Below are positions 1,079-4,563 of a stretch of DNA of 32,500 nucleotides, piece by piece. The first letter of the stretch is position 1. Every line of letters starts with the position of its first letter. The stretch is from Neocallimastix lanati (nom. inval.) (Eukaryota; Neocallimastigomycota; Neocallimastigomycetes; Neocallimastigales; Neocallimastigaceae). The position numbers and the translations under genes were made by a program. Below the pieces are notes generated by a model. It did no database searches. It was not told the DNA's origin and was given only the letters and a program-made list of their open reading frames with translations. The stretch spans positions 1,390,001-1,422,500 of the forward strand of contig JACVTC010000020.1 in assembly GCA_016946835.1 (NCBI GenBank), in the 5' to 3' direction.

Positions 1079-1596
1079 TCATAATTAATTTTCATTTAAA
1101 TGATTAAATTGTTAAATTGAATTTTTTTTTTTAAAAAAAAAAAATTTATAATAAATTTTAATTTTGAAATTTTGAAAATAAAATAAGTACTATAGGACTT
1201 AAAATATTTATATATTTTTTACTAATACATTTATAATAATTTAAATATATATATTTATTTTTTTTTTTCTAATTTTTTTTTTAATTAATTTTTATTTTTA
1301 TTTTTATTTTTATTTTTTTTTAAAAAACAAAAAACTATAAACGGAATTCTAAATTATTTTATTTTATTTTATTTTTTTTTTTTTTAAAATTTATTTTTTT
1401 TTTTTTTTGTATAAAAAAACTCTATTTATCTATATATATATATATATATATATATTTTATATTTTGTTAATATCTTTTTAAATATAAAATATATAATGAT
1501 TTCAATTTACTATTGAATTGAAATTAAGTGTTAGACTCTTTAAAAATAATAATTTAAATTATATATATATACATATATAATTTTTTTTTTTATAAG
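439..1596. other. AT-rich 5' flank of the helicase gene
   Basis: Low-complexity DNA with long T runs (1020-1070, 1255-1400), a T/A foldback near 1120-1145 and a (TA)n tract at about 1430-1455. It also holds the perfect palindrome at 858-934. No gene was seen. TATA-like sequence is everywhere, so no promoter can be assigned. Confidence 0.5.
858..934. repeat. Perfect 38-bp inverted repeat with a 1-nt loop
   Basis: Arms 858-895 and 897-934 are exact reverse complements around the single base 896, checked base by base; symmetry stops at 857/935. It could be a transposon footprint, a hairpin transcription signal, or a foldback artefact of library preparation or assembly. Confidence 0.9.
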
Positions 1597-4563
1597 ATGA
1601 ATATTGGAGATAATATATCAAAAGCCATAAAAGAAAAGAAATGGCTAGATATTTCATATACTAATAATCTTAATAAAAATACTTTTTTTTGGATAGCTGT
1701 TTTAGATATAAGATTTTATACCAAAGATCTTTATGTTTCAATATTTAATGATAAAAAAGCAAAGTTAAATACAATAAATTCATGGATAAATTTTAAAAGA
1801 ATAAAATCTGCAAAAGTTATAGAATTTACGTCATATGATAGACCAGATGAACTCATTGAGAAAATAGAACAAAATATTGAAAGCTGTAAATGGTTAAATT
1901 ATGACCATTATAGTAATAATATTTTGAATTATTATATTAAATGTAATGAATTAGATGTTGATCCAGTTCAGAAAAACTATGAAAGCGTTTCTGGAATCGA
2001 TTTAAATCTTTTAATGAAAAATTTAGAAATTAAATTAAATGAAACCCAAGAAAAAAAAATCATATCAGATATTTACCATTATGAAATAAAAAATTTTTCC
2101 AATTCACATTACACCCTAATTATTAATAAACTTTCAATTGATAGCAGTAAAAAAAAGTATGTAGTATGTTATTACGTATTAACCTTGGATCCGGAAAGAA
2201 AATCATTAGTAATTTCACCTCAATTGAGATTTAATGAAAGTTTTATGATAGAAGGTCGACCTCATTCCATTTTTAAATATATAAAGATGGATGTAGATGA
2301 ATTTACGAGAACATTTGAGTCGAATCAAAGTGAATATGAAGATATTATTTCAGAAAATTTATGGTATGGAGAATACATTAATACTAAACCAGAAATTATG
2401 TTACTGGAGAGGGAAATTAATGTTAATTTAACGGAAACCTACTCTGTCATAGAAGATAAATACAGAAGAAAGATGTTACCAGATCCTTTAAAATCTTTTT
2501 TTAGTAGTAACACAAAAATAAATCACGTGGAAAAGGAAGACTTTTCTATGGTAATATATGATGAACAAATTAATATTGATCAAGCCAGAGTCATCTATAA
2601 TTCATTAAAATATCCTACGACCTATGTAAGAGGTCCACCTGGAACAGGTAAAACTCAAACCATTTTAAATATTATCATGAGTGGATTTTATAATGATCAA
2701 AAAATACTGGTTTGTTCTTCCAATAATAAACCGGTAGACGGAATCAGAGATAAATTAGATGATTTTAAATATAATAAAGAAACTATTCCATTTCCTTATA
2801 TACGATTAGGAAATTATGATGATTTGAAGAAGGCAACAAAAAAAATAAAAGAATATTATGAAATGAACACGAATATCTCTAAGCCGGAAAAAGATTTAGT
2901 TGAAATTAAGATAAATGATAAGAAAAATCATGAAAAGTTTCTTAATCTATTAGAAATATATGAACGACGAGAAGAGCTTCAAAACCGTATAAAGAGTAAA
3001 AAGGATTTAATTCAATCAATTAAAAATGAAAATAGTAATACTAATATTGATGAAATTCAAATGAAATTGGAAAAGGATAAAGAAGAATTAGATAAATTAC
3101 CAATAATTACTAATAAAGATATTGTTAATAGTTATACTCCATTTAAAAGTAATGAACAGGTTTCCGAATATTTTTATTATAAATCCTATCAATGTATTAA
3201 TAATCTAAAAGACCCTATATATTCTTCTTTAATTAGTGTATGCTCAATTCGTGATGATAATATTCGTGTAAAAAAATTTAATAATTGGTGTTCTGACGAT
3301 AGTAATATGGAACTATTAACTAAAGTTTTTCCTATTATCCTTTCAACAAATATATCCTCTAGACGATTAGGAACCCCTAAATTTATGTTTGATACAGTGA
3401 TTATGGATGAAGCAGGACAATGTAATATAGCGACTGCATTAATACCGATAACAAAAGCAAAGTCATTAGTATTAGTTGGAGATCCAAGACAGTTACGACC
3501 AGTGATTGTTTTGGATGATTCTGTCAATAAAACCCTCATGGATGAATTTCACATATCAGAAAATTATAATTATAAAAAGAATTCGATCCTTGATGTGATG
3601 CTTTTCAACGATAAAATTTCAAAAAATATTTTGTTAAGTTATCATTATCGATGTGGCCGTAAAATTATTAAGTTTTCTAATCAACGTTACTATAATAATG
3701 AGTTAAATTTATCTCACCTTAAAAGTGATGGGAATTTAGAAATATTAGAGATCGAAAATCAAAATGTAAAATATAGAAATGAAGCCTTTGATGAAGCTTC
3801 GGAAATCGTAAATTATATTAAAAGAAATGATATTCATAATGTTTCAATTATAACCCCTTTCATCAATCAAAGGGATCTTATCAATATGATGTTAAAAAAG
3901 GAAAACATAAATGATGTCCACTGTGGTACGATTCATTCGTTGCAAGGAGCAGAAAAGGATACTATTATTTTTTCATTAGCTATCTCTCTAAAAACACAGA
4001 AAAAAACATATGAATGGATCAATAATAATTTTGAATTAATTAATGTAGCCATTACAAGAGCAAAAAAAAAATTAATTATTGCTGCAGATACAGAGGCGGT
4101 TGATCAACTCTCCAATCAAGAAGATGATCTCAACACTCTTATAAAATACGTAAAAAATAATGGAAATATTATTGTTCCTTCTAATGAATCTATTCTTGTT
4201 GAAATTGGTCGTTCCAATGGTAGTCAAGCTGAAGATGAGTTTTTCGTCACAATGTCTCATTTTTGTACATGTTATCAAAAATATGAGGTAAAAAGAAATG
4301 TTAAATTATCTAATCTATTTGGAAATAGATATAATACAGATATGGAATTTGATTCCATTCTCTATGATTTAAGTGGAACAGATCCTAAACCATTAATAGC
4401 ATTTGAAATTAATGGTGGAGAACATATAGGAATCGCCTCAAGAGAACATTCAGATAGACGAAAAATGAAAATTTGTTCTGAAAATAATATTAAATTAATT
4501 TTTATACCAAATAAAATGGTAAAATCCTATATAGCTATAATGGATATGATACTAGAAAATTAA
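1597..4563 (+). CDS. SF1 (UPF1-like) helicase fused to a C-terminal PD-(D/E)XK-type nuclease
   Basis: Intronless 988-residue protein. Residues 1-80 form a small beta-rich N-terminal domain (pattern AI-x4-WLDISY...FFWIAVLDI...LYVSIFN) resembling the start of bacterial helicases of this type, possibly WYL-like. The helicase core follows: Walker A GPPGTGKT at 346-353, a charged coiled-coil insertion about 429-505, motif II DEAGQ at 604-608, motif III GDPRQL at 628-633, HYRCG at 683-687, motif V TIHSLQGAEKD at 778-788 and motif VI NVAITRAKK at 816-824. Residues about 869-988 look like a restriction-fold nuclease of the DUF2726/Vsr-like kind: E879, E881, D919 in FDSIL, then E937-x-N939-GG-x-H943, matching the family's E-x-D-G-x-x-H pattern with Asn for Asp. 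The start is the first in-frame ATG after a stop at 1555-1557. Role is unknown; ATP-driven nucleic-acid remodelling and cleavage is inferred. Bacterial ancestry is likely from architecture, not from codon use. Confidence 0.9.
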   Translation: MNIGDNISKAIKEKKWLDISYTNNLNKNTFFWIAVLDIRFYTKDLYVSIFNDKKAKLNTINSWINFKRIKSAKVIEFTSYDRPDELIEKIEQNIESCKWLNYDHYSNNILNYYIKCNELDVDPVQKNYESVSGIDLNLLMKNLEIKLNETQEKKIISDIYHYEIKNFSNSHYTLIINKLSIDSSKKKYVVCYYVLTLDPERKSLVISPQLRFNESFMIEGRPHSIFKYIKMDVDEFTRTFESNQSEYEDIISENLWYGEYINTKPEIMLLEREINVNLTETYSVIEDKYRRKMLPDPLKSFFSSNTKINHVEKEDFSMVIYDEQINIDQARVIYNSLKYPTTYVRGPPGTGKTQTILNIIMSGFYNDQKILVCSSNNKPVDGIRDKLDDFKYNKETIPFPYIRLGNYDDLKKATKKIKEYYEMNTNISKPEKDLVEIKINDKKNHEKFLNLLEIYERREELQNRIKSKKDLIQSIKNENSNTNIDEIQMKLEKDKEELDKLPIITNKDIVNSYTPFKSNEQVSEYFYYKSYQCINNLKDPIYSSLISVCSIRDDNIRVKKFNNWCSDDSNMELLTKVFPIILSTNISSRRLGTPKFMFDTVIMDEAGQCNIATALIPITKAKSLVLVGDPRQLRPVIVLDDSVNKTLMDEFHISENYNYKKNSILDVMLFNDKISKNILLSYHYRCGRKIIKFSNQRYYNNELNLSHLKSDGNLEILEIENQNVKYRNEAFDEASEIVNYIKRNDIHNVSIITPFINQRDLINMMLKKENINDVHCGTIHSLQGAEKDTIIFSLAISLKTQKKTYEWINNNFELINVAITRAKKKLIIAADTEAVDQLSNQEDDLNTLIKYVKNNGNIIVPSNESILVEIGRSNGSQAEDEFFVTMSHFCTCYQKYEVKRNVKLSNLFGNRYNTDMEFDSILYDLSGTDPKPLIAFEINGGEHIGIASREHSDRRKMKICSENNIKLIFIPNKMVKSYIAIMDMILEN

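Follow-up and report, generated by a model that had tools for sequence, protein, structure and literature searches.

The window analysed here is a stretch of 32,500 nucleotides from the anaerobic gut fungus Neocallimastix lanati (bases 1,390,001–1,422,500 of contig JACVTC010000020.1). At 1597..4563 of its forward strand it carries an intronless gene whose protein, P0001, is predicted to combine an N-terminal WYL domain, a UPF1-like helicase of superfamily 1 (SF1) and a C-terminal nuclease. We propose that the gene passed from a Bacillota lineage, possibly via a phage, into the fungus, that it was then duplicated head to tail and kept under purifying selection, and that its likeliest use would be to degrade nucleic acid that is foreign or aberrant (from viruses or retroelements, or naked from bacteria). 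The probability of this explanation as a whole is put at about 0.6. Bacterial origin and retention in the fungus are near certain; the activity, direction of movement, ligand, substrate and defence role of P0001 are matters that we infer.

Bacterial relatives and direction of transfer

Relatives were sought in bacterial and archaeal genomes, in viral contigs and in the fungus's own genome. A scan of the bacterial genomes with P0001 alone gave 29 pattern matches, none of which was confirmed. With an alignment as the query, at least 488 out of 588 candidate stretches from bacterial and archaeal genomes code for relatives, of which the best 80 were kept. The top two among them, L025 and L026, come from metagenome-assembled genomes (MAGs) titled Clostridia and Bacilli and share 56% identity with P0001 over residues 1–986. 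They belong with a set of WYL – SF1 helicase – DUF2726 proteins encoded in Bacillota genomes (L025, L026, L113, L122, L123 and others), for which no name was found. These proteins are full-length and collinear with P0001 over residues 1–986 at 55–57% identity, and resemble it in length, in their start (the nearest ones share its ATG, MNIGD...) and, in some cases, in AT-richness; they are bacterial, whereas the fungal genes are duplicated and reside in a eukaryotic genome. The best full-length relative from follow-up genome searches is 57% identical, and one fragment of 192 residues reaches 58%.

The bacterial spread of the family is patchy. At E ≤ 1e-60, and with the query genome included, relatives occur in 47 of 279 genomes from the order that includes L026's genome; for the order of L025's genome, a larger group from which 396 genomes were drawn, the figure is 7. 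One isolate is named Lapin, which points to a rabbit source; a gut origin is otherwise presumed. Among viral contigs, scanned with an alignment of fungal and phage sequences, one of 85 matches was confirmed, and it had been known before. This is a full-length member (L006) on a contig from a viral collection, adjoining genes for a tail sheath, a baseplate hub and a baseplate wedge, and its open reading frame (ORF) has a GC content of 0.445 against 0.674 in the flanks. The phage setting and the contrast in GC therefore indicate that members of the family can travel on phages.

Two trees were calculated. One has 54 rows and draws on 47 of the 81 loci from bacteria or phages (alignment A4 on 42 of 81); the other, more careful, has 29 rows, from 14 of the 81 loci and 13 of 15 sequences from the genome searches, the fragments L126 and L127 being left out. 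The reference list is without L032 and L099. The larger tree groups the fungal pair with L025 and L026 (support 99). The smaller joins it with five bacterial sequences (98/99), inside a clade of 22 rows that is otherwise bacterial (100/100). Because the fungal copies nest inside a bacterial clade, the direction of transfer is from bacteria to fungus. L033 and L101 form a deep separate branch (100/100 in the 29-row tree). Fungal contamination of the nearest MAGs was considered and rejected, since the neighbours of L025 and L026 on their contigs read, by eye, as ordinary bacterial genes.

The gene thus shows both features expected of horizontal acquisition in a fungus, namely phylogenetic nesting in bacteria and residence in a fungal genome. 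A first-pass annotation of the window had already suggested such an acquisition, and this agrees with what was found: the closest relatives found in the genomes searched are bacterial and the placement among them is well supported. Judged from the sequences, the gene is almost certainly of horizontal origin.

Copies in the fungal genome and selection on them

The contig that carries the gene is 1,737,666 bp long, in an assembly of 199 Mb and 762 contigs. Its assignment to a fungal chromosome, as first annotated, is borne out by the window neighbours (an AAA ATPase gene that seems to be interrupted by introns, and genes for proteins of RING and ankyrin type) and by one dockerin (CBM_10, PF02013) on the same contig. 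Abundant fungal dockerins are a hallmark of anaerobic gut fungi (Neocallimastigomycota). The domain is present at all 150 scored candidates in the fungus's own genome (1440 in a first look), and 0 of 14 control genomes matched.

A second copy lies 9,322 bp upstream in head-to-tail orientation. Over 908 shared codons, protein identity between the two is 86% and DNA identity 92%, with no indel and no stop; the last part of the second copy falls in unread sequence. A 2602-codon frame at the second copy was rejected as a longer protein, as it passes through unread sequence. A decayed relative with many stops is found on a separate 3.7 Mb contig (G000:C223:536795-538071, L106:4795-6071), with a dockerin domain about 91 kb away, so that both contigs carry dockerins. 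Its pieces sum to 253 and 238 bits against the fungal copies, versus 206 against the best bacterial row, L025. After these three family copies, the next matches in the own genome are four of only 23–25 bits (E 1e-4 to 1e-3).

Nonsynonymous and synonymous divergence (dN/dS) of the tandem pair is 0.071/0.138 by NG86, 0.071/0.156 by YN00 and 0.064/0.080 by LWL85, where the contrast is weaker. A simulation of neutrality placed the observed 215 substitutions at random in 2000 runs. It gave a mean of 155 changed codons (minimum 136) compared with the 125 observed, and a mean of 9.25 stops (minimum 2) compared with none observed; no run of the 2000 was free of stops. On these sequence comparisons the pair is very probably under purifying selection, that is, functional constraint, in agreement with the earlier suggestion that the gene has been kept intact. 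The identity is uneven: the copies do not differ at all across 300 bp (window:3397-3696, codons 601–700), against a divergence of about 9% over the remainder of the 908 codons, a pattern that points to gene conversion or to strong constraint.

Base composition was dropped as a sign of long residence. GC content at third codon positions is 0.18 in the gene, 0.14–0.17 in three further ORFs in the window and 0.49 in the phage-contig relative, but some of the nearest bacterial relatives are as AT-rich as the fungal gene (overall GC 0.26 for the P0001 gene and 0.24 for the L026 ORF), and composition is therefore uninformative on this point; contamination becomes marginally likelier for it.

Other features were seen around the copies. 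About 2 kb before the second copy, two ORFs resemble retroelement gag and protease by eye, with no Pfam match (L022:1571-4350, minus strand). About 14 kb upstream of it is an intronless ORF of 208 residues of the nitroreductase family (PF00881; L024:1936-2562, G000:C113:1367936-1368562), possibly another gene of bacterial origin. Within the window, an ORF of 113 residues with a retroviral polymerase SH3-like domain (PF25597; window:31431-31772) is a likely retroelement remnant.

Domains of P0001 and comparison with known systems

The features of the gene are collected in Table 1, with residue conservation counted over 44 aligned family members. By single-base composition, the chance of a random open frame of 988 codons is about 1e-43. 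The single intact frame with complete SF1 motifs that was first annotated is confirmed by the ORF, by the positions of the motifs and by their conservation.

Table 1 Features of the P0001 gene in window coordinates
Feature	Position	Strand	Basis
Upstream flank of about 200 bp, duplicated with the gene; possible promoter	1394..1596	+	blastn alignment of window 1394-4322 with the upstream copy at 90.5% identity
Whole gene, intronless: WYL – UPF1-like SF1B helicase – DUF2726/PD-(D/E)xK nuclease (predicted)	1597..4563	+	ATG-to-stop ORF of 988 codons; full-length bacterial relatives
WYL-like domain, residues 1-86	1597..1854	+	Helix 3-12; strands 17-22, 28-39, 44-50, 59-65, 69-74
UPF1-like SF1B helicase, residues 105-865	1909..4191	+	
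Walker A GPPGTGKT, residues 346-353	2632..2655	+	K352 in 44/44 rows
Motif II DEAGQ, residues 604-608	3406..3420	+	D604 and E605 each in 44/44 rows
Motif III GDPRQL, residues 628-633	3478..3495	+	Q632 in 43/44 rows
Motif V QGAEKD, residues 783-788	3943..3960	+	G784 and E786 each in 44/44 rows
Motif VI NVAITRAK, residues 816-823	4042..4065	+	R821 in 44/44 rows
DUF2726-type PD-(D/E)xK nuclease domain (predicted), residues 877-988	4225..4560	+	DUF2726 homology of relatives; element order in full model
Presumed catalytic D919	4351..4353	+	43/44 rows, the remaining row a gap
Presumed catalytic E937-I-N-G-G-E-H943	4405..4425	+	E937 in 43/44 rows, H943 in 42/44

The helicase is the clearest part. Four Pfam families exceed their cut-off in P0001 (AAA_11, AAA_12, AAA_19 and Viral_helicase1), all within the helicase; the same scan found nothing above cut-off in residues 1–300 or 870–988. 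R685 is kept in all 44 rows. The SF1 motifs together with a UPF1-type core fold mark the protein as UPF1-like SF1B, and among solved structures the core best matches IGHMBP2, UPF1, DNA2 and SETX.

By fold comparison, residues 1–86 form an Sm-like barrel of the WYL type, and on this modelled fold the N-terminus is likely, with good confidence, to be a WYL domain. The Pfam WYL family (PF13280) matches 6 of 30 family members at E ≤ 1, weakly (best 0.082), and does not match P0001; searching the fungus's own genome with it gave no match, versus matches in 7 of 14 controls. In a PDB profile search, the N-terminal alignment returned a single match (E 1.2).

The C-terminal nuclease that had been annotated is supported by the relatives and by the model. 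DUF2726 is matched in 40 of 44 full-length family rows and in 28 of 29 C-terminal rows at E ≤ 1 (best E 1.1e-11), although P0001 itself falls under the cut-off (E 0.069, 13.3 bits against 24.7). The modelled order is a helix at 877–892, strands at 896–903, 917–924 (with D919) and 931–939 (with E937), a helix at 947–962 and a strand at 966–971, which fits the α-β-β-β-α-β core of PD-(D/E)xK enzymes. K956 is kept in 43 of 44 rows. At each nuclease column one row is gapped, presumably the second fungal copy, which is readable only up to residue 908. A PDB profile search with the C-terminal alignment gave five matches (best E 0.16), and a PF10881 profile search matched nothing in the own genome, nor in any of the 14 controls. 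Taken from the sequence, a helicase–nuclease architecture for P0001 can be assigned with high confidence. The first-pass account stands as regards origin and helicase–nuclease. It missed that the protein probably starts with a WYL domain, that the gene has a second copy and that bacteria already have the full architecture.

It is useful to compare P0001 with characterised systems. Mokosh carries a nuclease of the PLD family. Its types I and II likewise have a UPF1-like SF1 helicase, and supply the best PADLOC models (MkoC, E 1.6e-44; MkoA, E 5.3e-43). The matches are confined to the helicase of P0001 (residues 598–852 and 292–854, respectively) and are not full-length; no counterpart of the PLD nuclease part was found in P0001, which has the DUF2726-like C-terminus instead. 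The anti-phage protein Hhe carries a Vsr-type nuclease, and also has an SF1 helicase (NCBIfam NF042953, E 1.1e-20). P0001 scores 72.8 bits against a cut-off of 2000 there; Hhe is a much longer protein, since the model has 1797 positions. The IGHMBP2 family model TIGR00376 gives 139.3 bits against a cut-off of 348.9. By sequence, UPF1, IGHMBP2, SETX and DNA2 are not the nearest relatives of P0001; they are not known to carry WYL, and the nuclease of DNA2 is N-terminal.

A group of UPF1-like helicases from Bacteroidota, enterobacterial plasmids and phage contigs (P0003, P0004, L007, L008 and L010) have a C-terminus that can be aligned to that of P0001, with D919, Y923, P932, E937 and G940 identical, but they share 20–25% identity, have a different N-terminus and lie on a far branch of the tree. 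The WYL-Pif1 helicases of thermophilic bacteria also place a WYL domain on a 5'→3' SF1 helicase (PMC9964779). They differ in having a C-terminal WYL domain and a Pif1 core, with no nuclease mentioned in the available part of that work, whereas P0001 is predicted to have an N-terminal WYL domain, a UPF1 core and a nuclease.

Possible function and meaning

On the basis of this domain order, we hypothesise that binding of an anionic ligand, be it single-stranded nucleic acid or something else, to the WYL domain would license the enzyme, that the UPF1-like core would move 5'→3' using ATP, and that the metal-dependent PD-(D/E)xK domain would cut the strand fed to it. The proposal that WYL captures a strand or ligand ahead of translocation and cutting is made because the WYL domains of PafBC bind the single-stranded DNA that activates it (PMC11804915). 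In TePif1, too, the WYL domain binds single-stranded DNA and is crucial for activity (PMC9964779).

A defence role for P0001, in line with the action against foreign nucleic acid suggested at the first annotation, is plausible at slightly short of even odds. We lean towards it because of the patchy bacterial spread, the member amid phage genes, the similarity to the Mokosh helicase and the published link of WYL to defence: a 2014 survey describes WYL domains as defence regulators and mentions fusions to SF1 helicases (PMC4012209). DUF2726 has been described as a DNase of restriction endonuclease fold within abortive-infection fusions (PMC3710099), and viruses were found in 25% of 8 Neocallimastigomycota isolates screened (PMC7482067). 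In its fullest form the proposal is of a domesticated bacterial immune effector, ligand-gated, cell-autonomous, antiviral or anti-retroelement and multiplied in tandem, which would be among the first documented WYL proteins fixed in a eukaryote; this we put forward tentatively.

Some observations weigh against the explanation preferred here. Of 81 loci considered for neighbours, 67 gave 259 proteins, L071 and any locus with under three neighbours being set aside; 110 of these proteins, from loci up to L069 and with short or overlapping ones excluded by hand, were scanned. No recurrent bacterial partner was found among the 110, no family occurring more than three times (PADLOC) or four times (Pfam), which speaks against defence. 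In addition, repair or RNA turnover is nearly as good a fit as defence, and dN/dS, with a ratio of 0.46–0.80 depending on the method, is not low. The 165 PADLOC families matched at least once among the 110 neighbours do not show a defence island, because there is no control set for comparison. Single cases among the neighbours are a restriction-like gene near L031 and an IetA-like gene near L033. At L027 two UPF1-like helicases stand back to back (L027:760-3483, minus strand; L027:3870-6887, plus strand), one of P0001's subfamily and one of another.

The strongest alternative keeps the bacterial origin and has the gene co-opted as a housekeeping enzyme of DNA repair or RNA turnover, like DNA2, UPF1 or SETX. 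The solved-structure matches of the core point that way, purifying selection suits any enzyme in use, and the scanned neighbourhoods lack a recurrent partner; however, a housekeeping gene would not be expected to be so patchily distributed or to have a relative amid phage tail genes, and the duplication and decayed relative suggest turnover. We regard this as credible, though rather doubtful. That a transferred gene is now drifting, with no present function, is improbable. The decayed relative on C223 and the ratio noted above would agree with it, but 908 shared codons with neither stop nor indel in either copy do not, as neutrality predicts about nine stops, and all the catalytic helicase and nuclease residues that were checked are present in P0001.

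Bacterial contamination or an assembly chimera, the latter raised at the first annotation, is very unlikely. The closest relatives are bacterial and similarly AT-rich, and the stretch between the two copies is unread; against this, the tandem copy comes with a duplicated upstream flank, the decayed relative is on a separate contig with dockerins on both, and no bacterial sequence that was found comes closer than 57% identity at full length (58% in one fragment). A UPF1/SETX-type helicase native to the fungus, its nuclease gained convergently, would account for the UPF1 fold of the core, but has practically no chance given collinearity with bacterial proteins from residue 1 to 986, own-genome runners-up of just 23–25 bits and a tree that places the fungal pair inside bacteria; vertical UPF1/SETX descent is rejected, within the bacterial, archaeal, viral and own-genome sequences searched, on the same tree placement and full-length homology.

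The full architecture is already bacterial, and WYL–SF1 helicase fusions have been on record since 2014 (PMC4012209). According to the available text of that survey, WYL domains were not detected in eukaryotes. A 2019 survey calls WYL 'limited to bacteria', with 81 of 15,079 sequences coming from Eukaryota, Archaea or Viruses together (PMC6789036); because of these 81, priority cannot be claimed for a eukaryotic WYL domain. No fungal WYL helicase–nuclease was named in the titles and abstract openings searched, with subscription journals mostly outside the search. As far as the searches show, what is new is the duplicated, constrained presence of a WYL helicase–nuclease in a fungal genome.

A survey of gene transfer into gut fungi names pectin-degradation domains and an animal-type lectin with a putative role in microbial defence, helicases and nucleases being absent from its main text as available (PMC6712302). 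An acquisition that cuts nucleic acid would differ in sort from the transfers named there. WYL domains sense nucleic acids and are linked to defence in prokaryotes. An intact, duplicated WYL helicase–nuclease would show that a eukaryotic cell can keep a defence-type machine, and the gene offers a concrete case for how bacterial immune genes turn eukaryotic.

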